DNA of 64,000 nt from Myxococcales bacterium (lineage in GTDB: Bacteria; Myxococcota; Myxococcia; Myxococcales; Myxococcaceae): positions 62,001 through 126,000 of the forward strand of contig JACPVI010000048.1 in the NCBI GenBank assembly GCA_016191815.1. The letters run 5' to 3'. Position 1 is the stretch's first letter, and each line of letters starts with the position of its first letter. The position numbers and the translations under genes were made by a program. The notes beneath the pieces are model-generated. The model was not told the DNA's origin. It did no database searches and was given only the letters and a program-made list of their open reading frames with translations. Of the stretch, positions 3,467-24,885 are shown piece after piece.

Positions 3467-4291
3467 GTGGGCGGCAAGACGCCCCGCCGGCTGATCCTCC
3501 AGGTGACGCCTCGCTGCAACGCGCGCTGCGCTCACTGCGCCTACGGCGGAGGCCCCCGCCGCCACGGCCTGATGGAGGTCGGCGCCGCGGCGGCCTTCCT
3601 CGACGCCTTCTGCCGGCTGTGGGGAGCGCCGCGCTACGCCGCGCTCACCGGCGGCGAGCCGATGCTCTTCCCGGAGCGCACCCTGACGCTCGCCCGGCTG
3701 CTCTCCGCGCGCGGCGCGGCGGTGCGGCTGCTCACCAACGGCTCGTGGGCCACCGGCATGCGCGCGGCGAGGGCGCGGGTGGAGGACCTGCGCTCCTCTG
3801 GGGTTTCCGGTCTCTGGGTGAGCGCGAGCGCTTTCCACCAGGAGCACGTCCCCCTCGCGCGGCTGGAGATGCTCCTCGAAGCGGCGGCGGTCGCCGGCAT
3901 GCCTTGCTACCTGGCGTTCACCTTCATCCACCCGCGCGAGCTGGGGCTCAGGGGGAAGGGCGAGCCGGCGGTCGACGAGCGCGTTCCCCAAGATCTCCGC
4001 TCGCTCGCGCTGCTGCGCCGCCTCACCGGGCGGTTCCCCTTCGCCTCCTTGGGCTGGGCGCGCCTTTGGGACCTGGGGAGAGCGCGGGGAGTCTTTCGCC
4101 GGCTCGGGAGCGCGCTGGCAACGGAGGTGCGCGCGGACCTGGCGCGGGCCGCCGCCTCGGGGGAGGGAGATCTCCTCGACCTGGTCGGGCTCTCGGTGAA
4201 CGGAGAAGTGTTCTTCCGGGAGAGGACGCTCGGGCGGGCGCGGGGCTTGAACTTCGCCGCTCCGCTCGCTGCTCTCCCCGTCAGCCGATGA
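3467..4291 (+). CDS. Radical SAM protein, third gene of the prkA operon
   Basis: A 274-residue radical SAM enzyme. The cluster-binding CxxxCxxC is at C17, C21 and C24 (RCNARCAHC), and the SAM-contacting GGEP motif at about 62-65. The C-terminal half has no further cysteine-rich SPASM or twitch region, so only one 4Fe-4S cluster is expected. GTG 3467 directly follows the DUF444 stop, which implies translational coupling. No small precursor-peptide gene is visible nearby, so a RiPP-maturase role is not supported. Its substrate is unknown. Its place behind prkA-yeaH, where spoVR is often found, suggests a function in the same pathway. Its 3' end overlaps the convergent WD40 gene by 11 bases. Confidence 0.85.
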   Translation: MGGKTPRRLILQVTPRCNARCAHCAYGGGPRRHGLMEVGAAAAFLDAFCRLWGAPRYAALTGGEPMLFPERTLTLARLLSARGAAVRLLTNGSWATGMRAARARVEDLRSSGVSGLWVSASAFHQEHVPLARLEMLLEAAAVAGMPCYLAFTFIHPRELGLRGKGEPAVDERVPQDLRSLALLRRLTGRFPFASLGWARLWDLGRARGVFRRLGSALATEVRADLARAAASGEGDLLDLVGLSVNGEVFFRERTLGRARGLNFAAPLAALPVSR

Positions 4292-6119
4292 CCCGCCAGA
4301 GCCCGACGGTTCCATCGCTGGAAGCGGAGCAGAGCCGCGCGCCCGCGGGATCGAAGTCCAGGCACTCGACGGCGGAGAAGTGCGGGCGGGTGTAGGTGCC
4401 CAGGGGGGCCAGGGTGTCGGCGCGCCAGAGCCGGATCGTCCCATCCCACGAGCCGGTGGCGATCACCTCTCCGCCGGGGTGCACCGCCAGGGCCTGGATG
4501 GGCTCGTCGTGCTCGACCACTCGCAGCGCCCGCACCGACCAGGAGGAGGGGTCCCATACCGCCAGGCGCCGGTCGTAGCCCGCGCTGACTAGAAAGCTCG
4601 CGTTCGGTCCCCACGCCACCCGCGAGACCGAATCCTCGTGAAGGCTCAGGGTCGGCCCCTTCTCCACCTTGCCGGAGGCATCCACGGCGAGGATGACCAC
4701 TCCGTGGCTGGAAAGCCCCACTGCGATCCGCTGGCCGTCCGGCGACCAGGCCACGCAGTTCAAGATGCGGTTCATCACCGCGAAGTGCCAGAACTCCTCC
4801 GGGCCGAAGGCCTCGCGGGCGGCCTGCTTCACCTGCTCGATGTCGTAGACCACGAGGAAGGTGTCGCCGCTGCCGGTGCACACGAAGCGGCCGTCGGGCG
4901 AGAAGGAGACGCCGTACACCGCTTGCTCGTGCAGGGACTTGAGCTCGTGCGCGAGCAGCTTCTCCCCGAGGTCCCACACCTTCACCGTCCGGTCTACCGA
5001 GCCGGAAGCCACCGCTCGGCCGTCGGGCGACACCGAGAGCCCGTAGACCGGCTTCCGGTGAGGCTTCTCCAAGAGAGTGGGCGGGGCGCGTTTCCGCGCC
5101 TCCCACACCGCCACCGTCCCGTGGGAGTAGCCGGCGGCCAGCCTCGACGAGTCCGGGATCCACGCGCAGGAGAGCGCGTAGCCCATGACCTGTGGCCGAT
5201 AGATGGCGCGAGGCAACCAGCGCGAGTTGGCCAGCGCCGCTGCCACCACCTGCCCGTCCCGGCCGCCGGTCCAGGCCTGATCGCCCTCGGCGCTCCAGGC
5301 GACCGCCTCGGCCGGATGGAGGTGAGCCTCGCAGCTCCGCAAGCCGCCCGAGTTCAGGTCGTAGAAAAAGGACTTCCCTCGCTCGGTGCCGCCAGCGAGC
5401 ACGAGCTTGGCGGGGTGCCAGGCGAGGCACACCACCGGGTCGCCGCTCACCCCGAAGCGCGTCAGCTTTCGGGTGCGGAAGCAGTAGATCGCTCCCCTCT
5501 CGTCTCCGCTGGTGAAGGCGACGTAGCGCCCGCCCGGCGACACCCTCGCCCGCCGGATGCCGCTCGGGTGGCGGAACAGCTCCTGCTCCCGAGCCCGCCC
5601 TCGATAGAAGCTCAGCAGCCGGAGCGCCCCGTCATCACCGCCGACCAGCAGCGCTCCTGGCCTCGGCAGCCAGTCCACTGCCCGGAGCGGCCTTCCGCGC
5701 GCGCCGATCACATCGTAATGGCGCGCCCCCCGTTCCCACAGCGCCACGCTGCCGTCCTCCAGCGCGGCGGCGAGCTGGGCCCGCCCGTTTCGGCCCCTTG
5801 GACTCCAGGCGAGGTCGTTCACCGGCGCGCCCAGCTCGATGAGGGCGCCTGGTTTCAGCTTTGGGCCAACCGTCCACTCGCGGAGCAACCCGTCGCGTCC
5901 GGCGGAAACGATGCGGCTCTCTCCGGGCTCCACCGCGATGGAGGTGATCAGGTCTCGATGCGAGCTCTCCGCGGCGCTCTTCCTCTGGAGCGAAGAGCTG
6001 AACAGCACCAAGCCGTTCCGGACCGCGGCGATCACCGTGTCGGAGGAAGGCAGATGGGCGAGGGCGGTCACGAGACCATCCCCCAGCAGGCGCTCCAATT
6101 CGAGGCGCATGTTCTCCAT
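4281..6119 (-). CDS. WD40-repeat beta-propeller protein
   Basis: This 612-residue protein consists of repeated WD40 blades from end to end, with tryptophans in typical blade ends such as VKVWDLG, LAVWDPS, IRLWRAD and VGLWRVI and His/Asp-containing turns such as SVSPDGRAVASGS. The count suggests roughly twelve or more blades, or two propellers. There is no signal peptide or membrane helix, so it is probably a cytoplasmic scaffold. The start at ATG 6119 (MENMRLELERL) is the first methionine before the repeats; no clear Shine-Dalgarno is seen. It converges on and overlaps the radical SAM gene, and it diverges from the DUF3795-like gene across 111 bases. Confidence 0.88.
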   Translation of the reverse strand: MENMRLELERLLGDGLVTALAHLPSSDTVIAAVRNGLVLFSSSLQRKSAAESSHRDLITSIAVEPGESRIVSAGRDGLLREWTVGPKLKPGALIELGAPVNDLAWSPRGRNGRAQLAAALEDGSVALWERGARHYDVIGARGRPLRAVDWLPRPGALLVGGDDGALRLLSFYRGRAREQELFRHPSGIRRARVSPGGRYVAFTSGDERGAIYCFRTRKLTRFGVSGDPVVCLAWHPAKLVLAGGTERGKSFFYDLNSGGLRSCEAHLHPAEAVAWSAEGDQAWTGGRDGQVVAAALANSRWLPRAIYRPQVMGYALSCAWIPDSSRLAAGYSHGTVAVWEARKRAPPTLLEKPHRKPVYGLSVSPDGRAVASGSVDRTVKVWDLGEKLLAHELKSLHEQAVYGVSFSPDGRFVCTGSGDTFLVVYDIEQVKQAAREAFGPEEFWHFAVMNRILNCVAWSPDGQRIAVGLSSHGVVILAVDASGKVEKGPTLSLHEDSVSRVAWGPNASFLVSAGYDRRLAVWDPSSWSVRALRVVEHDEPIQALAVHPGGEVIATGSWDGTIRLWRADTLAPLGTYTRPHFSAVECLDFDPAGARLCSASSDGTVGLWRVIG

Positions 6120-6218
6120 CGGGGTGGGCGATAGCACAGGAGCGCCCCGCGCGCCCCGGGGCAGTTGGAATGGCGGGGCCTTGCCCGAGGGCTGTTCCCG
6201 GTCCAGGCAGATCTTGCC

Positions 6219-6224
6219 TAGCAT
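6219..6224 (+). promoter_or_regulatory. TAGCAT -10-like element 6 bases before a start codon
   Basis: TAGCAT is followed by six bases and then the ATG at 6231, and there is no Shine-Dalgarno sequence in between. That spacing would put the transcription start on or next to the start codon, giving a leaderless message. No convincing -35 box is seen. One of several similar cases in this window. Confidence 0.3.
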
Positions 6225-6230
6225 CGCGAC

Positions 6231-6821
6231 ATGTCCCACGGCGGTAGAGTCGAACCGGCGCTCGCCGGCGCCTGCGGCGCCTGCTGCGGCGCCTGCCTCG
6301 CGCACCGCGGAGAGCTGGCTCGCGAGGCCTCGAGGCTGCTCGAGCGAATCCGCCGCCAAGGCTTCCTCGGGCTCGCCAAGCGCCTCGACTCCGAGGGAGC
6401 ACCCAAGGTCGACGCGTTCTTCGAAGTGCTCGAGCGCATCGCCCGCACCCCGAATTGCCCAGGATGCGGCCGAGGTGGCGGGGTCCTCCACTGCCCGGTG
6501 CGCGCCTGTGCGCGGGAGAATCGGATGCCGACCTGTGCTGGCTGCGCGAGGCTTCGTCCCTGCGCGAGTGGGCGAGGCGGCGAGGATCGAGCGTCGCTGG
6601 AGCGGAGGAGGAGGTCCGCCCTCCGCGAGGATGGCCAGCGCGATTTCCCCTTCTCGGCGCCGGCCTTCCTCCGAAGGCTCACCAGGAAGTATGGCGGCTG
6701 GAACCTCCGCAACCTCGAGAGAATCTCCGAGGTGGGGCTGGCGCGCTGGCTCCGCGAGATGCAGCGAGAGCCGCACTTCCGGACCGTGGACGTCAAGAGC
6801 CCGAAGGACGTGTTTCGGTGA
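6231..6821 (+). CDS. Small cysteine-rich protein, DUF3795-like
   Basis: A 196-residue protein with an N-terminal CGACCGAC cluster (about residues 15-22) and two further cysteine groups near residues 76-79 and 89-111 (CPGCG, CPVRACARE, CAGCARLRPC). It therefore probably binds metal or an Fe-S cluster. The N-terminal pattern resembles the DUF3795 family, whose function is unknown; the match is by eye. The C-terminal third is basic and charged. There is no signal peptide. The next gene, a methyltransferase, starts at a GTG that overlaps this stop (GTGA), so the two are coupled and may act on the same substrate. Confidence 0.7.
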   Translation: MSHGGRVEPALAGACGACCGACLAHRGELAREASRLLERIRRQGFLGLAKRLDSEGAPKVDAFFEVLERIARTPNCPGCGRGGGVLHCPVRACARENRMPTCAGCARLRPCASGRGGEDRASLERRRRSALREDGQRDFPFSAPAFLRRLTRKYGGWNLRNLERISEVGLARWLREMQREPHFRTVDVKSPKDVFR

Positions 6822-7537
6822 GGACCGGCGCCAGCGCTCCCTGGGGCGGTGACGTGGCGCTCTATCGCCGGCTGGTCAGGGCGTGCGCGCCTGGTCGCGG
6901 GCGTGGCTCTCCCTGGGACGGGCCACTCTCCATGGCGGAGCGCGCGCTGCTCGAGCGCCACCTCCGCCTCCCCCGCGTGCTCTTGGCCGGCTGCGGCACC
7001 GGCAGAGAGATTCCCTTCCTGCTCGAGCTGGGCGCCCACCTGACCGCCCTGGACTGGGAGCCAGCGATGATCGGCTGCGTGCGCCGCCGCTTCCGGAGGC
7101 GTGGCGTACGGCTCGTCACCGGCGATGTCTGCGAACTGCCCGCGCTGTTCGGCGAGGCGGCGTTCGACTCCATCGTCGCCTTGGGGCTGGTGAGCGGCGG
7201 CCTCTTCCTGGATCCGCGGTCGCGCCATCGCGCGCTGGTTGCCATCAAAGGCTCCCTCGCCGAGGGCGGAGTGGCGCTGCTCGACTTCCTGCTTTCTCCC
7301 GGGAGGCGCGGCAAAGTGAAGCGCTTCTCCCTCTCGCTCGGGGGCGGCAGGAAAGCGGATGGCTGCTGCTACTGGCCCAGCCGCGGAGAAGTCGCCCGAG
7401 CGCTCAGCCGGGCCGGCTTCGAGGCGTCGTTTTGGCCGCTGTCGTTTTGCGCCGAGGAGCCACGGATCGCCGCGATCTGCTGGCCGCGCCGCGCGCGATC
7501 GAGGTGGGTGCGCATCCGCCGGGCAGTGCCCGGGTAG
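6818..7537 (+). CDS. SAM-dependent methyltransferase, class I
   Basis: A 239-residue Rossmann-fold methyltransferase. The SAM-binding motif I is LLAGCGTGREIPFLLELG (about residues 56-73), followed by an acidic end of strand two (ALDWEPAMI) and a motif-II region VTGDVCELPALFGEAAFD. The start GTG 6818 overlaps the stop of the upstream Cys-rich gene by four bases; a later GTG at 6854 is an alternative. The last 56 codons lie opposite the end of the convergent radical SAM gene, an overlap of 169 bases. The substrate is unknown; the family includes small-molecule, lipid and protein methylases. Confidence 0.8.
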   Translation: MRTGASAPWGGDVALYRRLVRACAPGRGRGSPWDGPLSMAERALLERHLRLPRVLLAGCGTGREIPFLLELGAHLTALDWEPAMIGCVRRRFRRRGVRLVTGDVCELPALFGEAAFDSIVALGLVSGGLFLDPRSRHRALVAIKGSLAEGGVALLDFLLSPGRRGKVKRFSLSLGGGRKADGCCYWPSRGEVARALSRAGFEASFWPLSFCAEEPRIAAICWPRRARSRWVRIRRAVPG

Positions 7538-8220
7538 GCGGTCAGCGTCTCCTCCTCGAGCAGGGAGGAAAGCCCGCGGGCGACTTGCTCGAGCTTTCGG
7601 AGCAGGGCCGCGCGCTCGGAGCGAGTGAACAGCTCCGGGGCAAAGGAGAGCGCGTTGAGACTGAAGCTCGCTCCAGCCGCGCGCAGCGCGCGGATGCACT
7701 CCCAACCGGCCTCGAAGGCGTCGCTCCGCGCCCCGGTCAACCTCTCGAACTGCTCTTTGGTCCCGGCCTTGAGCGAGACCTTCAGCGTGACGCGGCGGCG
7801 GAGCTGCCCCAGCTTCCTCGTCCATTCCGGGTGCGCGCCGAGCACGACTCCGTTGGTCTCGACGAAGATTCGTCCCGGCGAAGAGAGCAGCCACTCCAAC
7901 AGCTCGAAGAAGCGCTCGCTCAGGATCGGCTCTCCGCCGGAAAGCCGCACCCGCCGCGGATTCGCGCCGAGCCGATTCTCCCGGCGGAAGGACTCGATTC
8001 GACCGCGAAGCTCCGCGTACTCGCGCATCGGAGCGGACAGCGGACGCTCGAGGTCCTCTCCCGCCCAGCAGTGCACGCACCTCAGGTTGCAACCGGACAG
8101 GTACAGCGTGAGCGCGCCACCGCAGGCCCCCGCCGCTCCGATTCGCAAGATTCGCCTGGCCCCGGGCCCCTCCAGCCGCGAGGAGAGTTGGCTGGCCAAA
8201 AGGAACGCGTCGTACGGCAC
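7369..8220 (-). CDS. Radical SAM protein (second in the window)
   Basis: A 283-residue radical SAM protein with CxxxCxxC at C44, C48 and C51 (GCNLRCVHC) and the motif RLSGGEPIL near residue 95. FVETNG and LKVSLKAG further on match conserved core strands. The fold resembles activating-enzyme and PflA-like proteins: the region before the cluster is GACGGALTLYLSGCN. The C-terminal tail is basic and low in complexity, and residues from about 228 are read from DNA antisense to the methyltransferase, so the native end could be shorter in function. No second cluster motif is visible. The substrate is unknown. The start at ATG 8220 is the first ATG of the frame. Confidence 0.82.
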   Translation of the reverse strand: MPYDAFLLASQLSSRLEGPGARRILRIGAAGACGGALTLYLSGCNLRCVHCWAGEDLERPLSAPMREYAELRGRIESFRRENRLGANPRRVRLSGGEPILSERFFELLEWLLSSPGRIFVETNGVVLGAHPEWTRKLGQLRRRVTLKVSLKAGTKEQFERLTGARSDAFEAGWECIRALRAAGASFSLNALSFAPELFTRSERAALLRKLEQVARGLSSLLEEETLTAYPGTARRMRTHLDRARRGQQIAAIRGSSAQNDSGQNDASKPARLSARATSPRLGQ

Positions 8221-8316: not shown

Positions 8317-9030
8317 CTACCGCGCCGCCGTCCGCCGCTTGGGCTCGAGCTGGCGCTCCGCTTCGGCGAGGACCCGGTAGACCGCGCGGGCGCCGGGCGC
8401 CGAAAGGACCTTCTCCACCGCCAGGGGACGGGCGAACATCCGCGCCAGCTTGTTCAACCAGGGCAGGTGGAGCCCGGCGAACTTGAGCCCCAGGACGAAG
8501 AACAGGTGGGTGGGCTTCCCATCCAGCGCGTCGAAGTCGATGCCGGCCCGCGAGCGGCCCAGCACCATGAACGGCCGCACCACCTGCTCCGGGTGGCGCC
8601 TCAGGGTGTGAAGGAAGGCGATCCCGTTGCCGAGGGCGCTCGGCATCACGTTCTCTCGCTCCACCAACGCCCCCACGAACCACGTCTTGTCGCGCACCAG
8701 CTTGAGTCGGTGGGCGAGCTGGGCGAGCTCCTCGAGCACGGTGGTCTTCGTGGTGGCCGACAGCTCGGGGACGATGTGCTCCGGCTGGAAACAGCTCGAC
8801 AGCTCGAGCATCCGCCTGGGAACGCCCGCCCTCGGCGGCTCGACGTACCGAGGCGTCACTCCCAGCATCTGGTCGTCCAGCCAGGTGTCGATCATCGCCT
8901 TCCGGAAGCGCCACTGGTTGCCGACCTTCATTCCGGGCAAAGCGCCCTCGGCCACCAGCTTGAGCACGGTCCGCTCGTTGACGCTGAGATAGGCGGCGAG
9001 CTGCCGGGCCGTCATCAAGCGGTCTTCCAT
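8317..9030 (-). CDS. Helix-turn-helix / PTS EIIA (PtsN-like) fusion regulator
   Basis: This 237-residue protein joins an excisionase/MerR-type helix-turn-helix (residues 5-50, MTARQLAAYLSVNERTVLKL with KVGNQWRF) to a type-2 EIIA phosphotransferase domain (about 75-230). The predicted phosphohistidine is H141 in GNGIAFLHTLRRH; the usual PH pair is LH here, so the proline is replaced. EIIA domains of the nitrogen PTS accept phosphate from HPr-like proteins and act by binding partners, which suggests a DNA-binding protein tuned by carbon or nitrogen status. It is divergent from the Ehr operon over 146 bases containing repeats and a promoter, so it is a good candidate regulator of that operon (inference). 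Confidence 0.85.
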   Translation of the reverse strand: MEDRLMTARQLAAYLSVNERTVLKLVAEGALPGMKVGNQWRFRKAMIDTWLDDQMLGVTPRYVEPPRAGVPRRMLELSSCFQPEHIVPELSATTKTTVLEELAQLAHRLKLVRDKTWFVGALVERENVMPSALGNGIAFLHTLRRHPEQVVRPFMVLGRSRAGIDFDALDGKPTHLFFVLGLKFAGLHLPWLNKLARMFARPLAVEKVLSAPGARAVYRVLAEAERQLEPKRRTAAR

Positions 9031-9100: not shown

Positions 9101-9120
9101 CTTGCGGAGTCTTGCGTAGT
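9101..9120. promoter_or_regulatory. Tandem 10-bp repeat CTTGCGKAGT in the divergent Ehr control region
   Basis: CTTGCGGAGT and CTTGCGTAGT stand head to tail, exactly one helical turn apart. The second copy runs into an inverted repeat GCGTA-GTTT-TACGC (9114-9127). The site lies just behind the predicted minus-strand -35 box and about 57 bases before hyfB. Position and spacing look like an operator for a dimer or tandem regulator, perhaps the neighbouring HTH-EIIA protein. Confidence 0.4.
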
Positions 9121-9176
9121 TTTACGCCAAACTCCGGTAGAAGGCCGGGAAGCGGGCGGAGGGGGAGCTGGCGCTG

Positions 9177-11153
9177 ATGCTGGGTTGCATCATCGCCGCC
9201 ATCGCCGCCCTTTTGGCGAGCGCGCTCCTTGCGGCGCTCGCCGGTCGATCCGACCGGGCCTCGCTGGCCATCGGCACCGCGGGGAGCGTGGGCGCCTGCC
9301 TCCTGGGGCTTGGGGCCTCCGCCGCGGCACTGGTGGATGGCGCGAACGCGGACCTTCGCGCGGGCTGGTCGCTCCCCATCGGCGAGGTGCACGTAGGGAT
9401 CGATCCGCTCTCATCCTTCTTCCTGGTCTGCATCTTCCTGGTCTCTGGCCTGGCCGCGGTGTACGGCGCCGGCTACCTGCGCGGGTACTCGAACCGGAAG
9501 GCGCTGGCTCCTGCAGTCTCCCTCTTCAACCTGCTGGTCGCCTCGATGGCGGGCATCGCCATCGCGCGCGACGGGGTGCTGTTCCTCCTCTCCTGGGAGC
9601 TGATGTCGATCGCCTCCTTCCTCCTCGTCACCTACGAGGATGAGCGAGAGGAGGCGCGGCGCGCGGGGATGACCTACCTCATCGCCTCGCACCTCGGAGT
9701 GGTGTTCCTGTTCGTGCTCTTCGGCCTGCTCGCGCGCGGGGCGGGCAGCTTCGACTTCGCCCGCTTCGCCCAGGCGGGAGCCCCCGCGGGGATGGCGGGC
9801 ACCTGCTTCCTCCTCTCGCTGGTGGGCTTCGGCACCAAGGCGGGCTTCTGGCCGGTGCACATCTGGCTCCCAGACGCTCACCCCGCGGCGCCCAGCCACG
9901 TCTCCGCTCTGATGTCCGGGGTGATGATCAAGCTCGGCATCTACGGGATCTTCCGCACCCTCACCTTCCTCGGCCCGCCGCCGCCCTGGTGGGGAACGAC
10001 GCTCCTTACGGTGGGCGCCATCTCGGCGGTGGCGGGAGTGCTCCACGCCCTCGCCCAGCACGACCTGAAAAGGCTGCTCGCCTACCACAGCGTGGAGAAC
10101 ATCGGCATCATCGCCCTGGGGATGGGCATGGGCTTGCTCGGGCAGGCCCAAGGCGCGCCGTCGGTCGCCTTCCTCGGTTTCGCGGGCGCGCTGTTGCACG
10201 TGTTGAACCACGGCTTGTTCAAGGGGCTGCTCTTCCAGAGCGCCGGCAGCGTGCTCCACTCCACCGGCACGCGCGACGTAGAGTCCTTGGGCGGGCTCCA
10301 GCGGCGGATGCCGCTCACCGCCCTCTGCTTCCTGGTCGGCTCGGCGGCGATCTGCGGCCTGCCGCCGCTCAACGGCTTCGCGAGCGAGTGGCTGGTGTAC
10401 CTGGGCGCCTTCCGGGGAGCGGGCTCCTTCCCCACCAGCTTGGCCGCGGCGGCCATCGGCGTGGTGCCGGTCTTGGCGCTGGTAGGAGGCCTGGCGGCGG
10501 CGTGCTTCGTGAAGGCCTTCGGGGTGGTGTTCCTCGGCGAGGCGCGCACCAAGGCCGCTACCTCGGCCCACGAGCCCGGCCCGGCGATGGTGGGGGCAAT
10601 GCTCGGCGGGGCCACCCTGTGCGCCGCGATCGGCCTGGCCCCCAAGACCGCCTTGAGGCTGGTCTCGCCTGCGGTCAGCGGCTCTTTGGGAGTGCCGGCG
10701 GCGCCCGAGGCGGTGGGGCCTCTTTCGGACATCACCTGGGCCGGAGTGGCGCTGGCCGGCATCATCGCGCTGATCGCCCTCGCCCGCTGGGCGCTGCTCC
10801 GCGGGCGTTTTGTGGGCGCGGCCGTCACCTGGGGCTGCGGCTACGCCTCTCCTACCCCTCGCATGCAGTACACCGCCTCGTCCTTCGCCTCGCCCTTGCT
10901 CGAGCTGTTCGCCTCGGTCATCCACGCGCGCGTCCAAAAGGAGGGCCCGACGGGGTGCTTCCCGAAGGCCGCCCGCTACGAGGAGCACCTGGGCGACATG
11001 GCCGGGGAGCGGATGCTGGTCCCCCTTTCTCGGCGCATCGTCGCCGCCGCGGGCAGGCTGCGCGTCATCCAGCAGGGGCGGGTGCACCTCTACCTGGTCT
11101 ACATGCTCGCCACGCTGATCGCGCTGCTCCTCTGGCAGCTCGGCGGGAGCTGA
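9177..11153 (+). CDS. hyfB: Ehr/hydrogenase-4 membrane subunit B (NuoL/antiporter-like)
   Basis: A 658-residue integral membrane protein of the proton-translocating NuoL/M/N and Mrp-antiporter family, closest in plan to HyfB/HycC. About 14-16 helices are suggested. Conserved charged residues sit where the family needs them: Glu in LSWELMSIASF (about 142), Lys in GFGTKAGFWPVHIWLPDAHP, Lys in MIKLGIYGIF, and the loop motif HDLKRLLAYHSVENIG. It would pump ions in the membrane arm. ATG 9177 follows GGGGGAG. It is the first gene of a six-gene operon with short gaps; the next start is 4 bases after this stop. Confidence 0.9.
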   Translation: MLGCIIAAIAALLASALLAALAGRSDRASLAIGTAGSVGACLLGLGASAAALVDGANADLRAGWSLPIGEVHVGIDPLSSFFLVCIFLVSGLAAVYGAGYLRGYSNRKALAPAVSLFNLLVASMAGIAIARDGVLFLLSWELMSIASFLLVTYEDEREEARRAGMTYLIASHLGVVFLFVLFGLLARGAGSFDFARFAQAGAPAGMAGTCFLLSLVGFGTKAGFWPVHIWLPDAHPAAPSHVSALMSGVMIKLGIYGIFRTLTFLGPPPPWWGTTLLTVGAISAVAGVLHALAQHDLKRLLAYHSVENIGIIALGMGMGLLGQAQGAPSVAFLGFAGALLHVLNHGLFKGLLFQSAGSVLHSTGTRDVESLGGLQRRMPLTALCFLVGSAAICGLPPLNGFASEWLVYLGAFRGAGSFPTSLAAAAIGVVPVLALVGGLAAACFVKAFGVVFLGEARTKAATSAHEPGPAMVGAMLGGATLCAAIGLAPKTALRLVSPAVSGSLGVPAAPEAVGPLSDITWAGVALAGIIALIALARWALLRGRFVGAAVTWGCGYASPTPRMQYTASSFASPLLELFASVIHARVQKEGPTGCFPKAARYEEHLGDMAGERMLVPLSRRIVAAAGRLRVIQQGRVHLYLVYMLATLIALLLWQLGGS

Positions 11154-11157
11154 CGCC

Positions 11158-12078
11158 TTGCTCCGGACGACCATCCACCTCGCGCTGCTCCTCCTCTTCC
11201 CGCCGCTGTTGTTCGGCGTGATCAACAAGACCAAGGCCACCTTCGCTGGCCGGCGGGGGCCGCCCTTGCTCCAGCCGTACTTCGACGTCCTCCGGCTGTT
11301 CCGGAAGGGGGCGGTGTACAGCCGGACCACGAGCTGGGTGTTCCGCGCGGGGCCGATCGTCTCTCTGGCCACCGCCATCCTCGCGGGGCTGCTCGCGCCG
11401 CTTTGCGAGGCCGGCTCGCCGCTCGGGTTCCAGGGCGACGTGGTGGCCTTCGCGTACCTGTTCGGGCTGGGGCGCTTCTTCACCATGGCAGCGGCGCTGG
11501 ACACCGGCTCCAGCTTCGAGGGGATGGGGGCCAGCCGGGAGGCGGCGTTCTCGGCGCTGGCCGAGCCGGCGCTCTTCTTGGCTTTGGCCATCGTCTGCGT
11601 TCCCGCGGGGACTCCCACCTTCGAGGCCGCCTGGAGAGCCCTGCCCTGGGAAAGCTGGGGCGCCTCTCACCCCTGGTTCCTCGCGGCGGCGGCGGCGCTC
11701 TTCGCGGTGATGCTGGCGGAGAACTCGCGCATCCCGGTGGACGATCCGAACACCCACCTCGAGCTGACCATGGTCCACGAGGTGATGGTGCTCGACCACA
11801 GCGGGCCGGACTTCGCCTTCATCCTCTACGGGAGCGCTCTGAAGCTCTTCGTGCTCGGCTCCCTCCTGGTGCACTTGCTCCTGCCCATCCCCGCCGGCGG
11901 GGGACCTTTCGGGGTGCTCTTGATGATCGGGGGGCAGCTCGCCATCGCGGTGCTGATCGGCGTGGTGGAGTCGACCATGGCGCGGCTCCGGCTCGTCCGG
12001 GTGCCGCAGTTCCTCATCGGCGCCTCGGTGGTGGCGGCGATCGGGCTCGCCTCGGTCTTCTATCGGGGAGCGCCGTGA
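11158..12078 (+). CDS. hyfC: Ehr/hydrogenase-4 membrane subunit C (NuoH-like)
   Basis: A 306-residue NuoH/HycD/HyfC-type membrane subunit that anchors the redox arm to the membrane arm. The signature AENSRIPVDDPNTHLELTM is at about residues 181-199 and is followed by HEVMVLDHSGPD; this acidic loop is the hallmark of the family. About eight helices are expected. The start is TTG 11158, four bases after the hyfB stop. Its end overlaps the hyfE start (GTGA at 12075-12078), showing translational coupling. All landmark residues look intact, so the quinone-site-like or coupling region is probably functional. Confidence 0.9.
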   Translation: MLRTTIHLALLLLFPPLLFGVINKTKATFAGRRGPPLLQPYFDVLRLFRKGAVYSRTTSWVFRAGPIVSLATAILAGLLAPLCEAGSPLGFQGDVVAFAYLFGLGRFFTMAAALDTGSSFEGMGASREAAFSALAEPALFLALAIVCVPAGTPTFEAAWRALPWESWGASHPWFLAAAAALFAVMLAENSRIPVDDPNTHLELTMVHEVMVLDHSGPDFAFILYGSALKLFVLGSLLVHLLLPIPAGGGPFGVLLMIGGQLAIAVLIGVVESTMARLRLVRVPQFLIGASVVAAIGLASVFYRGAP

Positions 12079-12728
12079 ACGGGTACGCGGACCTGCTGCT
12101 CTTGGTGGTGGTGGTGCTGGACGTCTACATCGTGGCCACCAGCCGGCTGGCGAGCTGCGTGCGGGCCTCGGCGCTGCAGGGAATCGCCCTGGCGCCCCTG
12201 CCGCTGGCGCTGTGGTGGGGCTCGTCCTCGGAACAGCTCCTCCACCTGGGCCTGATCAGCGTGGGAGCGCTCGCCATCAAGGGAGTGGTCATCCCGCTCT
12301 TGCTCTTCCGGGCCATCCGGGTGGCGAACGTCCGCCGCGAGGTGGAGCCCTTCGTCAGCCTGCACCTGTCGGTGCTCATCGCCGCGGTCCTGGTGGGCGT
12401 CTCCTTCTGGCTGGCCACGGTGCTGGTCCTGCCCAAGCCGGCGCCGTCGACCCTGGTGGTACCGGTGGCGTTCGCCACGCTCCTGCTCGGCTTCCTGGTG
12501 CTGGTCTCCAGGCTCAAGGCCATCACCCAGGTGGTCGGCTACGTGATGCTGGAGAACGGGGTCTTCATCTTCGGCCAGACCATGGCCAGGGAGATTCCCC
12601 TCGCGGTCGAGCTGGGAATCCTGCTCGACCTGTTGGTCGGAGTCTTCGTGATGGGCATCGCCATCCACCACATCAGCCGGGAGTTCGACCACATCGACAC
12701 CGCGCTGCTCGACTCGCTCAAGGACTGA
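12075..12728 (+). CDS. hyfE: Ehr/hydrogenase-4 membrane subunit E (NuoK-like)
   Basis: A 217-residue protein with about six membrane helices, matching HyfE, which combines a NuoK-like part with extra helices. The NuoK-type motif GYVMLENGVFIFG (near residue 160) carries the conserved membrane Glu, and the end HHISREFDHIDTALLDSLKD is typical of HyfE. The start is GTG 12075, inside the hyfC stop. hyfF follows 4 bases later. No hyfD homologue is present between C and E, unlike in the E. coli hyf operon. Confidence 0.88.
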   Translation: MNGYADLLLLVVVVLDVYIVATSRLASCVRASALQGIALAPLPLALWWGSSSEQLLHLGLISVGALAIKGVVIPLLLFRAIRVANVRREVEPFVSLHLSVLIAAVLVGVSFWLATVLVLPKPAPSTLVVPVAFATLLLGFLVLVSRLKAITQVVGYVMLENGVFIFGQTMAREIPLAVELGILLDLLVGVFVMGIAIHHISREFDHIDTALLDSLKD

Positions 12729-12732
12729 CGCC

Positions 12733-14160
12733 ATGACGCTCGCGCTGCTCATCGCGGTCCCTGCGCTCCTCGGCGTGGTGGCCTTCCGGGTGGAGAGCGT
12801 GAAGATCGACCTCGGCCTGTTGCTCTCCGGCGCCGCCTTCCACCTCGCCTGCACCGCGGCGCTGTGGCTGTGGCCGGGCGCCGAGGAGGCGGGCTTCCTT
12901 CTCCAGCTCGACTTCCCGGGCCTGCTCTTCCTCTCCATCACCAGCGCGCTCTTCGCCGCCGCCTCGCTCTACACCGTGCCCTACCTCCTGCACGGGACGC
13001 ACGATGCGCAGGCCGGGCCGCACCGCTTCGTCCCCTGCCTGCTCTGGTTCCTCTCGGCGATGACGCTGGTCTGCACCACCCAGCACCTAGGGGTGATGTG
13101 GGCGGCGGTGGAGGCCACCACCTTGGCCAGCGCGCCATTGGTGTACTTCTACCGGCGCCGGGCCGCGCTGGAGGCCACCTGGAAGTACCTCCTCATCTGC
13201 TCGGTGGGCATCGCCCTGGCGCTGTTGGGAGTGCTCTTCCTCGGGATCGCCGGTTCGGCCACCGGCTCTTCGGAGCTGACGCTGGAGTCGCTGCTCCGCT
13301 CGGCGCCCCAGATGCCCAGGCCGTGGCTCAAGGCCGCCTTCGTCCTCGCGGTGGTGGGCTACGGAACGAAGATGGGGCTCGCGCCCTTGCACACCTGGCT
13401 TCCGGACACCCACAGCCAGGCGCCCTCCCCGGTGTCGGCGCTGCTCTCGGGGGCGCTGCTCAACTGCGCCTTCTTGGCCATCCTCCGCTTCCACCAGGTC
13501 TGCCTCGCCTCCGGCGACGCCGACTTCGCCCGCACCTTGATGCTCGTCCTCGGCTTCACCTCCATCGCGGTGGCCTGCGCTTTCATGATCCGGCAGCGCG
13601 ACTACAAGCGGCTGTTCGCCTACTCCAGCATCGAGAACATGGGCGTGGTGGCGGTGGGGGTGGGGCTGGGCGGCGCCGCCACCTACGGAGCGATGCTCCA
13701 CGCGGTGAACCACTCGGTCTGCAAGGCCGGGCTGTTCTTCCTCGCCGGCAACGTGCTCCGGGAATTCGGCACCACCAACGCCGGGGAGGTCAAAGGGGTC
13801 CTGAGGAGGCTCCCGGTCACCGGCGCGCTGATGCTCGCCTTGTTCCTCGCCATCGGCGGGGCTCCGCCCTTCGGGCCGTTCCTCTCCGAGCTGATGATCT
13901 TCCAATCGGCGATCGGCGGCTCCGCGCCGTGGCTGGGAGTCGCCTTCGCGGCGCTCTTGGCGCTCGCCTTCCTGGGCATGGCGGGAGTGCTCCTGCCGAT
14001 GCTCCAGGGCGTGCCCGCCGAGGCACGGCGCGCCGCCGAGAGGCCGCTCGCGGTAGGGGCGCCGCTCGCCTTGGCGGCCGTCGCGCTGTTGCTCGGGGTC
14101 CATGTGCCGCCGTTCCTCTCCGAGCTCTTGGGCCGGGCGGCGGGAATGCTCGGAGGCTAG
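12733..14160 (+). CDS. hyfF: Ehr/hydrogenase-4 membrane subunit F (NuoN/NuoM-like)
   Basis: A 475-residue second antiporter-like subunit with about 13-14 helices. Family features include the Glu in MWAAVEATTLASAPLV, the Lys-containing loop GYGTKMGLAPLHTWLPDTH, and QRDYKRLFAYSSIENMGVV. Where HyfB has MIKLGIYG, this protein has ALLNCAFLAIL, so one membrane Lys of the second half-channel is not obvious. Start ATG 12733 comes 4 bases after hyfE; hyfG begins 2 bases after its stop. Together with HyfB it gives two putative ion-pumping units. Confidence 0.9.
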   Translation: MTLALLIAVPALLGVVAFRVESVKIDLGLLLSGAAFHLACTAALWLWPGAEEAGFLLQLDFPGLLFLSITSALFAAASLYTVPYLLHGTHDAQAGPHRFVPCLLWFLSAMTLVCTTQHLGVMWAAVEATTLASAPLVYFYRRRAALEATWKYLLICSVGIALALLGVLFLGIAGSATGSSELTLESLLRSAPQMPRPWLKAAFVLAVVGYGTKMGLAPLHTWLPDTHSQAPSPVSALLSGALLNCAFLAILRFHQVCLASGDADFARTLMLVLGFTSIAVACAFMIRQRDYKRLFAYSSIENMGVVAVGVGLGGAATYGAMLHAVNHSVCKAGLFFLAGNVLREFGTTNAGEVKGVLRRLPVTGALMLALFLAIGGAPPFGPFLSELMIFQSAIGGSAPWLGVAFAALLALAFLGMAGVLLPMLQGVPAEARRAAERPLAVGAPLALAAVALLLGVHVPPFLSELLGRAAGMLGG

Positions 14161-14162
14161 GT

Positions 14163-15701
14163 ATGGGCGAGCCTGCCGCCAGTCGCGCGAGCGTGGAGCT
14201 TTCGGGCCCCGAGGTGGCGTGGGGAAAGGCGGGGGGGGCGTGGCCGCTCGCGGATGTCCCGGAGCTAACTGCTTCGGGGCTGAGGAGCGCCTGTCTCGAG
14301 CTGTGCCGAAGCGGCGCCAGGCTGTCCGCCCTGTGCGCCCTGGGGCCACCGGGCGAACGGCAGCTATGGGCGGTGGTCGCCGACGACGTGCGGGGTCGGG
14401 TGGGCCTGGCGAAGAGCCGGCTCGGCCCGGGCGAGGCCTTCCCCTCGGTGACCTCAGAGCTGCCGCAGGCGCAGGCGTTCGAGCGCGAGCTCATCGAGGC
14501 GGGGGTCGCGGTGGAAGGGCACCCGTGGCCGAAGGCGCTCCGGCGGCACCGGACCCTCGAGGAGCTGGGTGGCCGTACCTCGGAGGCGCCGCCACATCCG
14601 TTCTTCCAGGTGGAGGGCCCCGGCATCCACGAGGTCGCGGTCGGCCCGGTGCACGCCGGCATCATCGAGCCAGGGCACTTCCGCTTCCAGTGCCACGGGG
14701 AGAAGGTGCTGAGCCTGGAGATCCAGCTCGGCTACCAGCACCGGGGCGCCGAGGAGCTCCTTATGCGCTCCCCTCCGCCGAGGCGGCTCTCGGTGGCGGA
14801 GTCCATCGCCGGAGACACCGCGGTGGGCCACGCGCTCGCCTACTGCGCCGCGCTCGAGGCCCTCTCCGGGGTCGAGCCCCCGCAGGGCGCGCAGCTCCTC
14901 CGCGGCGTCGCCCTCGAACTGGAGCGGCTGCACAACCACGTGGGGGATCTCGGCGCGCTCTGCAACGACGTGGGTTACCTGCCTGGAGCGTCCTGGTTCG
15001 GTCGCCTGCGCGGCGAGATGTTGAACGCGCTGATGGAGCTGTCTGGAAACCGCTTCGGCCGCGGCCTGCTCTTGCCCGGCGGGGTCCGGTTCGGCGCCAC
15101 GCCGGACCAGCGCAGGCGCCTTTTGGCCCGGCTTCCGCTCTTGGAGCGAGATCTCCGCGCCACCGCCAGGCTGACCTTCGACTCGGCCTCGGTGGCCTCG
15201 CGCTTCGATCACACCGGGGTCTTGAGCAGAGAGTTGGCGGCCGAGCTGGGCCTGGTGGGCCCGGCGGCGCGGGCGAGCGGGCGCGACCTCGACCTGCGCC
15301 GCGATCACCCTGCGGGCATCTACCGCTCGGTGAAAGTTGTCCCCGCGGTCCTCTCCTCGGGGGACGTGCACGCCCGCGCGATGGTGCGGTGGCTCGAGGT
15401 GGAGCGCTCGCTGGCCTTCGTCCAGGAGCGCCTGGAGAAGTCGCCGGAGCGCGGCCTGTCGGAGGAGCTTCCCGGCCTCCGCCCTTCGTCCGTGGCCGTC
15501 TCGATGGTGGAGGGCTTTCGGGGCGAAATCCTCCACCTGGCAGTCACCGACTCGTCCGGAGCCATCGCCGGGTACAAAGTGGTGGACCCCTCCTTCCACA
15601 ACTGGTTTGGCCTGGCGATGGCGATGCGGGGCAACCACATCTCCGACTTCCCGCTCTGCAACAAGAGCTTCAACCTCTCCTACGCGGGGCACGACCTGTG
15701 A
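14163..15701 (+). CDS. hyfG: Ehr complex large subunit: HyfG/HycE-like NuoCD protein without nickel ligands
   Basis: This 512-residue protein has a NuoC-like N-terminal part (residues about 60-125, EAFPSVTSELPQAQ and VEGHPWP) fused to a NuoD/group-4 hydrogenase large-subunit domain (about 145-512), as in HycE. In true group-4 hydrogenases two CxxC motifs bind the NiFe site. Here the first aligns with IAGDT at 215-219 (Cys to Ala and Thr) and the last, DPCYSC, aligns with NLSYAG at 504-509 (Cys to Ser and Gly), while flanking residues are well kept. The protein therefore cannot hold a normal NiFe centre. This fits the energy-converting hydrogenase-related (Ehr) complexes described in the literature. 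No hydrogenase maturation peptide follows, since the chain ends at the motif. Confidence 0.88.
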   Translation: MGEPAASRASVELSGPEVAWGKAGGAWPLADVPELTASGLRSACLELCRSGARLSALCALGPPGERQLWAVVADDVRGRVGLAKSRLGPGEAFPSVTSELPQAQAFERELIEAGVAVEGHPWPKALRRHRTLEELGGRTSEAPPHPFFQVEGPGIHEVAVGPVHAGIIEPGHFRFQCHGEKVLSLEIQLGYQHRGAEELLMRSPPPRRLSVAESIAGDTAVGHALAYCAALEALSGVEPPQGAQLLRGVALELERLHNHVGDLGALCNDVGYLPGASWFGRLRGEMLNALMELSGNRFGRGLLLPGGVRFGATPDQRRRLLARLPLLERDLRATARLTFDSASVASRFDHTGVLSRELAAELGLVGPAARASGRDLDLRRDHPAGIYRSVKVVPAVLSSGDVHARAMVRWLEVERSLAFVQERLEKSPERGLSEELPGLRPSSVAVSMVEGFRGEILHLAVTDSSGAIAGYKVVDPSFHNWFGLAMAMRGNHISDFPLCNKSFNLSYAGHDL

Positions 15702-15711
15702 GGCGCCGGCG

Positions 15712-16479
15712 ATGATCGACCTTTTCAAGGCGCGGCTCCAGCAAGGCGGCCAGACCACCGCCTTCCCCGTGGCCAAGGCGGAGCTTCCCGCGCGCTTTCG
15801 GGGGCGCCCCAAGCTCGACGGCTCGAAGTGCCGCGATGGATGCAACCTTTGCGCGGAGGCCTGCCCCACGATGGCCGTCTCCACCCGGCCGCTCAAGCTC
15901 GACCTGGGCGCCTGCCTCTTCTGCCCCGCCTGCCAGGAGGCCTGCCCGGAGGGCGCCATCGCCTTCACCGCGGAGCACGCCCTGGCCACCCGGACCCGAG
16001 AGGATCTGGTGGTGGCGGACGGCGAGGCCAAGCTGGCCTTTGCGCTCGATGCGGCAATGCAGAAGCTCCTCGGCCGATCGCTCAAGCTCCGGCAGGTCTC
16101 GGCGGCGGGCTGCAACGGCTGCGAGGCCGAGCTCTTGGCGCTCTCGAACGTGGTGTTCGACCTCGGGCGCTTTGGGGTGCAGTTCGTCTCTTCGCCGCGC
16201 CACGCCGATGGGGTGGTGGTGACTGGGCCGGTCAGCCGGAACATGGAGTACGCCCTCCGCGAGACCTGGGCGGCGGTGCCCTCCCCCAAGGTGGTGATCG
16301 CGGTGGGCGCCTGCGCCATCGCCGGCGGCCCCTTCGCCGGTTCCCCCGCCGCGCTGGGCGGAGTGCCGGTGGACCTCCCGGTGCACCTCTACGTGCCCGG
16401 CTGCCCGCCCCACCCGCTCACCCTCCTCGACGGCCTGCTCCGCCTCTTGGGCCGGCTGGGGGCGCCTAAAGAAAAGTAG
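15712..16479 (+). CDS. hyfI: Fused ferredoxin / NuoB-like small subunit (HyfH-HyfI fusion)
   Basis: A 255-residue electron-transfer subunit. Residues 1-95 are a two-cluster ferredoxin (C40, C44, C47, C51 and C68, C71, C74, C78; the first site is CxxxCxxCxxxCP). Residues 125-255 are a NuoB/HyfI-like small subunit with all four ligands of the proximal cluster: C134 and C137 (GCNGCEAE), C201 (GACAIAGG) and C231 (PGCPPHP). In E. coli hyf these are two separate genes. All Fe-S ligands are intact, so electrons can still reach the large subunit even though its metal site is lost. ATG 15712 is 10 bases after hyfG; this is the last gene of the operon. Confidence 0.9.
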   Translation: MIDLFKARLQQGGQTTAFPVAKAELPARFRGRPKLDGSKCRDGCNLCAEACPTMAVSTRPLKLDLGACLFCPACQEACPEGAIAFTAEHALATRTREDLVVADGEAKLAFALDAAMQKLLGRSLKLRQVSAAGCNGCEAELLALSNVVFDLGRFGVQFVSSPRHADGVVVTGPVSRNMEYALRETWAAVPSPKVVIAVGACAIAGGPFAGSPAALGGVPVDLPVHLYVPGCPPHPLTLLDGLLRLLGRLGAPKEK

Positions 16480-17632: not shown

Positions 17633-17734
17633 TCTTTGGCCCCCTGCTGGGCGCGCGGACGGGCGGCGGCCCGAGAGCCGAGTTCCACCTCGGATTGGGC
17701 CCGCGATGCTACCATCTCGCCCGGAGCCCCGCGG

Positions 17735-19228
17735 ATGCCCAAGTCCCTCACCCCCCGCCTCGAGGACCTGCGAAGCGAGATCGAGGGCTACGCCCGGGAG
17801 CTGGGGCTGGACTTCTTCGAGACGGTGTTCGAGATCCTCTCCTACGACGAGCTGAACATGGTGGCCGCCTACGGCGGCTTCCCCAACCGCTACCCCCACT
17901 GGAGATGGGGCATGGAGTACGAGCAGCTCTCCAAGGGCTACGAGTACGGGCTGTCGAAGATCTACGAGCTGGTGATCAACAACGACCCCTGCTACGCGTA
18001 CCTGCTCGAGTCGAACGCCGAGGTGGACCAGAAGCTGGTGATGGCCCACGTCTGCGGCCACTGCGACTTCTTCAAGAACAACTTCTGCTTCCAGCACACC
18101 AACCGCCGGATGATCGACGAGATGGCGAACCACGCCACCCGGGTCCGGCGGTGGATCGACAAGATCGGCGTGGAGAAGGTCGAGGACTTCATCGACCGCG
18201 CGCTCTCGCTGGAGAACCTGATCGACCAGCACGCCCCCTACATCAAGCGCAACCCCGACCCCAAGCGCGCCGAGGAAGAGGCCAAGGCCAACGAGAAGGT
18301 GGAGGGCTTCCGGGTCGACCGCGAGTACATGCGCGGCTACGTCAACCCGGCGGAGTTCCTCCAAGCCCAGCGCAAGAAGGTGGAGGACGAAAAGCAGAAG
18401 GCCAAGAACTTCCCCGAGCGGCCCCAGCGCGACGTGGTGCTCTTCCTACTCGAGCACGCCCCCTTGGAGCCGTGGGAGTTCGACATCCTCTCCATCGTCC
18501 GCGAGGAGGCCTACTACTTCGCCCCCCAGGGCCAGACCAAGATCATGAACGAGGGCTGGGCCAGCTACTGGCACTCGACGATCATGACCCAGCGGGCCCT
18601 CAAGGACCACGAGGTGATCGACTACGCCGACCACCACTCGGGCACCATGGGGACCCGGCCGGGGGCGCTCAACCCCTACAAGCTGGGCATCGAGCTGTTC
18701 CGCGACATCGAGGATCGCTGGAACAAGGGCCGCTTCGGCAAGGAGTGGGACGAGTGCGACGACCTTCGCGCCCGCCGCACCTGGGACAAGAAGCTCCTCG
18801 CCGGGCGGGAGAAGCTCTTCGAGGTCCGCAAGCACTACAACGACGTCACCTTCATCGACACCTTCCTCAGCGCCGAGTTCTGCCTGGAGCAGAAGCTGTT
18901 CGTCTACGGCTTCAACGAGAAGCGGAACGCCTGGGAGATCATGGACCGCGAGTTCCGCAAGGTGAAGAACAAGCTCCTCCACCAGCTCACCAACTTCGGC
19001 CAGCCGATCATCGAGGTGGCGGACGCCAACTTCGAGAACAAAAGCGAGCTTTTCCTCACCCACCGGCACGACGGCACCGACCTCAAGGCCGACTACGCGA
19101 GGGAGACCTTGAAGAACGTCCAGACCCTCTGGCGCCGGCCGGTGAACCTCCTCACCAAGTTCGAGGGGAAAGGCACCATGGTGCGCTACGACGGGCAGAA
19201 CCACTCCGAGAAGAAGGTAGAGCTGTAG
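17735..19228 (+). CDS. spoVR: SpoVR family protein
   Basis: A 497-residue cytoplasmic SpoVR/YcgB protein, standard length for the family. Hallmarks include FPNRYPHWRWGMEYEQL, a His- and Cys-rich region MAHVCGHCDFFKNN, and IMNEGWASYWHS, which resembles a metal-binding helix. SpoVR acts in cortex formation in Bacillus spores and usually travels with prkA and yeaH in other bacteria; the molecular activity is not known. Here it is about 14 kb from that pair. ATG 17735 has GGAG at the right distance; an in-frame upstream ATG lies in a stretch unlike the family. Confidence 0.94.
   Translation: MPKSLTPRLEDLRSEIEGYARELGLDFFETVFEILSYDELNMVAAYGGFPNRYPHWRWGMEYEQLSKGYEYGLSKIYELVINNDPCYAYLLESNAEVDQKLVMAHVCGHCDFFKNNFCFQHTNRRMIDEMANHATRVRRWIDKIGVEKVEDFIDRALSLENLIDQHAPYIKRNPDPKRAEEEAKANEKVEGFRVDREYMRGYVNPAEFLQAQRKKVEDEKQKAKNFPERPQRDVVLFLLEHAPLEPWEFDILSIVREEAYYFAPQGQTKIMNEGWASYWHSTIMTQRALKDHEVIDYADHHSGTMGTRPGALNPYKLGIELFRDIEDRWNKGRFGKEWDECDDLRARRTWDKKLLAGREKLFEVRKHYNDVTFIDTFLSAEFCLEQKLFVYGFNEKRNAWEIMDREFRKVKNKLLHQLTNFGQPIIEVADANFENKSELFLTHRHDGTDLKADYARETLKNVQTLWRRPVNLLTKFEGKGTMVRYDGQNHSEKKVEL

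Positions 19229-22377: not shown

Positions 22378-24885
<2,508 letters not shown>

Follow-up and report, generated by a model that had tools for sequence, protein, structure and literature searches.

The window, which is the whole analysed stretch of 64,000 nucleotides from a Myxococcales bacterium, contains a six-gene operon for a hydrogenase-4-like complex assigned here to the Ehr group. In the literature, Ehr complexes are described as having neither the CxxC motifs nor a known function (PMC10284858, PMC4378227, PMC6349859). The operon and the elements lying upstream of it are as follows:

8317-9030, minus strand: fusion of HTH_17 (PF12728, E 3e-13) and PTS_EIIA_2 (PF00359, E 1e-24), a candidate regulator gene divergent from hyfB
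9105-9136, no strand assigned: 14-nt inverted repeat, 86% complementary with a 4-nt loop, in the stretch separating the regulator gene from hyfB, recognised from the motif alone
9177-11153, plus strand: HyfB/NuoL-like antiporter subunit, 658 aa (PF00361, E 2e-59; best NCBIfam family hydrogenase 4 subunit B)
11158-12078, plus strand: HyfC/NuoH-like membrane anchor, about 306 aa, start codon uncertain (PF00146, E 8e-33)
12075-12728, plus strand: HyfE-like membrane subunit, about 217 aa (NF008556, hydrogenase 4 membrane subunit E, 1e-22)
12733-14160, plus strand: HyfF-like antiporter subunit, 475 aa, pump residues present (PF00361, E 4.5e-49)
14163-15701, plus strand: HyfG/EhrL large subunit without NiFe ligands, 512 aa (alignment, tree, AlphaFold2 model and fold match)
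15712-16479, plus strand: HyfH-HyfI fusion (EhrS), 255 aa, two [4Fe-4S] clusters and the proximal [4Fe-4S] cluster (PF01058, E 6e-28, and Fer4 matches; 12 cysteines at ligand positions)

All six subunit genes are intact and closely spaced, with hyfE and hyfC overlapping by a few bases and the remaining gaps measuring 2-10 bp; the hyfG frame gives a stop-free translation of 512 amino acids. Hyf/Nuo-like membrane subunits and an Fe-S small subunit are thus encoded together in one operon. Pfam and NCBIfam lead to the same gene assignments, including the fused HyfH-HyfI, as an earlier note on this DNA made from the letters alone. That note also called the B-C-E-F-G-HI layout myxobacterial in type, a description which has to be given up, because the layout is found across many phyla. 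Two tandem hyfB-like genes (B-B'-C-E-F-G-HI) are present in many Ehr operons (L036-L054 and many of L076-L155) and often in those of Geobacter, whereas the window has one, together with the divergent HTH-EIIA gene.

The surroundings of the operon include genes of other kinds. Downstream lie a SpoVR-like protein (17636-19228) and a carbohydrate phosphorylase of the glycogen type (22378-24885), and a WD40 beta-propeller repeat protein is encoded at 4281-6776 on the minus strand. A radical SAM gene (7369-8220, minus strand) is located directly downstream of the HTH-EIIA gene; it was rejected as an Ehr partner, as its homologues occur in 0 of the 80 named loci. The ORF beside it was considered as NrdD and turned out to be a WD40 protein.

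The large subunit retains the fold of its hydrogenase relatives. The best PDB match of the window HyfG is HycE of E. coli FHL-1 (7z0s_E, phmmer E 7e-43, same register), to which the family profile also aligns with E 2e-87. The AlphaFold2 model, built with 100 sequences, reaches a pLDDT of 91.6, with residues 509-512 and the loop 163-166 poorly modelled, and its closest PDB fold is again FHL-1 HycE (TM 0.87). In an alignment of 123 rows, the four ligand columns read CCCC in E. coli HycE, HyfG and two cysteine-bearing relatives, and A216, T219, S506 and G509 in the window protein. The two CxxC motifs that bind Ni and Fe in group 4 NiFe hydrogenases are therefore missing. The earlier placement of the former motifs at IAGDT (215-219) and NLSYAG (504-509), with all four cysteines gone, is correct. 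These sites correspond to two short segments of the gene:

14808-14819, plus strand: former first CxxC, codons of A216-G217-D218-T219, where G217 and D218 are invariant in 112 Ehr sequences
15660-15698, plus strand: former DPCxxC region, N500 to L512 (NKSFNLSYAGHDL), where the chain ends exactly, with no residue beyond L512 in 112 of 112 Ehr sequences

The possibility that other cysteines of the protein occupy the ligand positions, which had been named beforehand as what would overturn this reading, does not hold: the seven cysteines of HyfG (44, 48, 58, 177, 228, 267 and 499) all align outside the ligand columns. The residue listed at that time as C491 is in fact C499. The loss of ligands is common to 112 relatives from more than 10 phyla, including Geobacter, and since the same replacements recur in these homologues, they are not a matter of chance in the window protein.

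The electron-transferring and membrane parts are preserved. The fused HyfHI has exactly 12 cysteines (C40/44/47/51, C68/71/74/78 and C134/137/201/231), which all align with the Fe-S ligand positions of HycF/HyfH and HycG/HyfI and are conserved in about 111 relatives; the original count of twelve, and the presence of the other subunits, was accurate. The proximal cluster has a hydrogenase-type CxxC, a full-length motif and four ligands. HyfB and HyfF keep the Glu of TM5, the Lys of TM7, the His/Lys of TM8 and the Glu of TM12. Judging from these conserved cluster ligands and pump residues, the complex would transfer electrons and pump ions. Compared with E. coli FHL-1 (HycE) and hydrogenase-4 (HyfG), the fold, the types of subunits and the CxxC of the proximal cluster are alike; the window differs in the absence of the NiFe ligands, the 32-residue C-terminal tail and HyfA/D/J, in the fusion of HyfH to HyfI, and in a genome without HypD. 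The missing tail was rejected as a proof of lost maturation, because the cysteine-bearing relative L066 likewise has none.

Ehr is widespread. Within the phylum, 178 of 195 genomes give some match, mostly NuoD, and close relatives (roughly 41-60% identity) are found in 43 genomes, comprising most members of one related family and occurring sporadically in the family of the window itself. A scan of GTDB genomes yielded at least 573 relatives. Eighty of these were retrieved, and among their sources are Geobacter, Verrucomicrobia, Planctomycetes, Omnitrophota, Acidobacteria, Gemmatimonadetes, Spirochaetes, Elusimicrobia, Chloroflexi and Bacteroidetes. In the tree, the window HyfG falls inside a cysteine-less clade of 44 rows (SH-aLRT 100) together with Geobacter and Geomonas sequences, to whose large subunits it is 49% identical. 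This clade is nested in a group of 49 rows, near the base of which stands the four-cysteine L066, and HycE and HyfG lie outside. The tree, which holds sequences of G. argillaceus and Geomonas limicola and leaves out the G. sulfurreducens EhrL itself, was made by a quick method with SH-aLRT support only, and owing to long branches its deepest order is unsure; it fits a hydrogenase ancestor whose metal site was lost. The gene set and the loss of the CxxC motifs are shared with the Ehr locus of Geobacter sulfurreducens (GSU0739-0745, EhrL/EhrS). The clade, the matching gene set and the absent NiFe cysteines support the original assignment, so that the window copy is a further complex of an already known group.

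Two kinds of relatives deserve separate description. L066 (G192:C37, 8780-10180) is 40% identical, keeps the four NiFe cysteines and the NKSF motif, and has no C-terminal tail; it is possibly a surviving intermediate between the group 4 hydrogenases and Ehr. A second Ehr-like paralogue (L056, L058-L064; about 42-45% identity) has no HTH-EIIA gene at its loci. A regulator of the FHA/sigma-54 type flanks some of these loci, and certain genomes carry both this paralogue and the main type.

The emptied pocket is strongly conserved. G217, D218, S506, G509, Y507, N500, K501, S502, F503, D511 and L512 are effectively invariant in the 112 Ehr sequences. Compared with four cysteine-bearing hydrogenases, the Ehr-specific positions include H156, C177, Q192, D218, D269, N288, G299, W452 (the window itself carries F here), D475, C499, S506, G509 and L512. 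The conservation of non-cysteine pocket residues had been suggested in advance as a sign of a new function, and this sign is present. With its residues fixed throughout the 112 sequences, which span more than 10 phyla, the pocket of the window HyfG is not decaying. The NKSF motif (N500-K501-S502-F503) was rejected as a mark of metal loss, as L066 has it alongside four cysteines; part of the pocket motif is therefore older than the loss of the metal site.

The genome of the window, which is 98.8% complete, was searched for the machinery of NiFe maturation and for possible electron donors. Neither HypD nor any NiFe large subunit of PF00374 was found in it, by searches that are positive in E. coli; HypD is missing from 10 of the 43 Ehr-bearing genomes of the phylum. 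Consequently, the Fe(CN)2CO centre is very probably unavailable to the complex, and the NiFe cofactor can probably not be made in this organism. The earlier claim that the complex does not make hydrogen is strengthened by both absences. The genome encodes four POR-type (ferredoxin-type 2-oxoacid) oxidoreductases.

Neighbour clustering of the 80 loci, performed with masking since antisense ORFs of GC-rich genomes otherwise dominate, revealed the HTH_17-PTS_EIIA_2 fusion as the only meaningful conserved neighbour beyond the operon. One of the two remaining clusters is a sensor-type protein that occurs scattered over either strand, and the other is made up of antisense ORFs. A profile search places the fusion upstream of hyfB, at a distance of at most 3 kb, in 54 of the 88 main-clade loci for which upstream DNA exists, in 53 cases on the same strand; some genomes are included twice in these counts. 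The corresponding number for the loci of group B (the paralogue) or the outgroup is 0 of 11. It is found inside the operon in a few additional Ehr loci, and three loci (L087, L093, L136) each have two copies of different subtypes. Among 60 genomes of the order, 16 full-length matches have E below 1e-80, and the rest are EIIA-only and no better than about 1e-25. Thirteen of the strong matches are on the Ehr contig, two precede a hyfB truncated close to where its contig stops, and the last match sits at the end of a contig. The phospho-histidine of EIIA is 97% conserved and corresponds to H141 in the window copy; EI and HPr are encoded in the genome, so phosphorylation is possible. The fusion is probably a phosphorylation-responsive regulator, with whose gene the operon starts in most relatives, and it would control the ehr genes; the inverted repeat at 9105-9136 may serve as an operator. 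In the window, the tie to the operon is weaker than in relatives, because the protein has diverged (33% full-length identity to Ehr-linked copies) and its gene lies on the strand opposite to hyfB. A link of PTS or EIIA to Ehr is not reported in the open-access papers searched.

The most probable interpretation, held with reasonable though not full confidence, is that the window encodes a membrane-bound, complex-I-like redox pump of the Ehr type which is not a hydrogenase. A low-potential soluble donor, most likely ferredoxin, would give electrons to HyfHI; as no electron-input dehydrogenase is conserved nearby, a ferredoxin-like donor is a guess. Within HyfHI the electrons would pass through the two [4Fe-4S] clusters to the proximal [4Fe-4S] cluster, and from there to a substrate in the former NiFe pocket of HyfG. 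This pocket would be metal-free and polar, lined by D218, S506, Y507, N500 and K501, with the proton-transfer glutamate E169 retained. The redox step would drive ion translocation via HyfC/HyfE and the two antiporter-like subunits, HyfB and HyfF. Among possible acceptors, a hydrophobic carrier of two electrons, for example menaquinone, is the most likely, bound in a way unlike that of complex I, although the odds are somewhat below even.

The strongest competing explanation, which is nonetheless improbable, is a "headless" ferredoxin:quinone oxidoreductase with a quinone site of the complex I type. Respiratory complex I (NuoCD/NuoB) shares the large-subunit fold and the antiporter-like pump subunits with the window, and the pump residues are present. 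Complex I is recognised by H38 and Y87 of Nqo4 and by adjacent cysteines in the small subunit (PMC7684303). However, the positions of T. thermophilus Nqo4 H38 and Y87 are taken by I168 and G217, both invariant in 112 Ehr sequences, which argues against such a quinone site. The proximal cluster has CxxC where complex I has the tandem CC, and the window is without an NADH module. A UbiA-family prenyltransferase, found in 19 of 20 Ehr genomes, would agree with quinone use, but the family is near universal and all controls were positive, so that its presence is uninformative on quinone dependence.

A pairing with formate dehydrogenase (FDH), in which formate oxidation drives ion pumping, is considered unlikely. 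Ehr subunits are more abundant in formate-grown G. sulfurreducens (PMC7894505), Ehr is increased in a syntrophic coculture (PMC8691401), and an FDH-Ehr system has been proposed for candidate phyla (PMC6349859). The window genome has one FDH alpha subunit above the cutoff, but it is encoded on a different contig (C2), and neither FDH nor another dehydrogenase is a conserved neighbour in the 80 loci with flanks of up to 10 kb.

The third explanation makes the proximal [4Fe-4S] cluster itself the catalyst of polysulfide reduction within the emptied pocket. A precedent is the sulfane reductase MBS of Pyrococcus furiosus, likewise derived from group 4 and without a NiFe site, in which the NiFe function has been lost within the superfamily. 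In MBS, three cysteines from a motif shortened by three residues bind the proximal cluster, two of the NiFe cysteines remain, and the E21 glutamate is missing (PMC7684303). Ehr contrasts with it in all these respects, with a full-length four-ligand CxxC, no NiFe cysteine, and a glutamate at the MbhL E21 position (E169 by phmmer alignment to the PDB) in 112 of 112 sequences, and MBS-like chemistry is therefore very unlikely. At the level of sequence, Ehr is neither of the complex I type nor of the MBS type and is clearly separated from both, and its proximal cluster should be fully ligated; it follows, as the chief constraint on the mechanism, that electrons would pass to a bound substrate, the cluster not being the catalyst.

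A decaying hydrogenase remnant without redox function, as might be read from the loss of every metal ligand and of the maturation machinery, is scarcely credible in view of the six intact genes, the Fe-S and pump residues and a pocket motif invariant across phyla. Least credible of all is an active hydrogenase with other metal ligands, for which the Ehr-specific and 97% conserved C177 and C499 are the candidates, as these lie off the ligand columns, are lost independently (3 Ala, 3 Asn, never together), which also speaks against a paired disulfide, and the genome is without HypD.

Taking Ehr as a non-hydrogenase redox pump, it can be speculated, with low confidence, that it represents a fourth kind of catalytic head in the superfamily of complex I, next to those that reduce protons, sulfane and quinone. 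Such a head would be characterised by the fully ligated proximal cluster, the metal-free polar pocket and the proton-transfer glutamate, and a dedicated EIIA-HTH switch, phosphorylated by the PTS, would tie the pump to carbon, nitrogen or potassium status.

The function of Ehr has been a puzzle since its first description. Four elements are added here: HypD is absent, the emptied pocket is invariant, the sequence sets Ehr clearly apart from complex I and MBS, and there is a dedicated HTH-EIIA partner. As HypD is not detectable in this genome, a hydrogenase role can probably be discounted for this copy, and with its metal-binding site gone as well, the complex would have to do some electron-transfer job other than hydrogen making. 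The pocket residues for mutation are now named, and the HTH-EIIA partner provides a genetic handle on the conditions under which Ehr is used. Together, the fixed replacement pocket and the conserved regulator gene make the function of Ehr easier to test.
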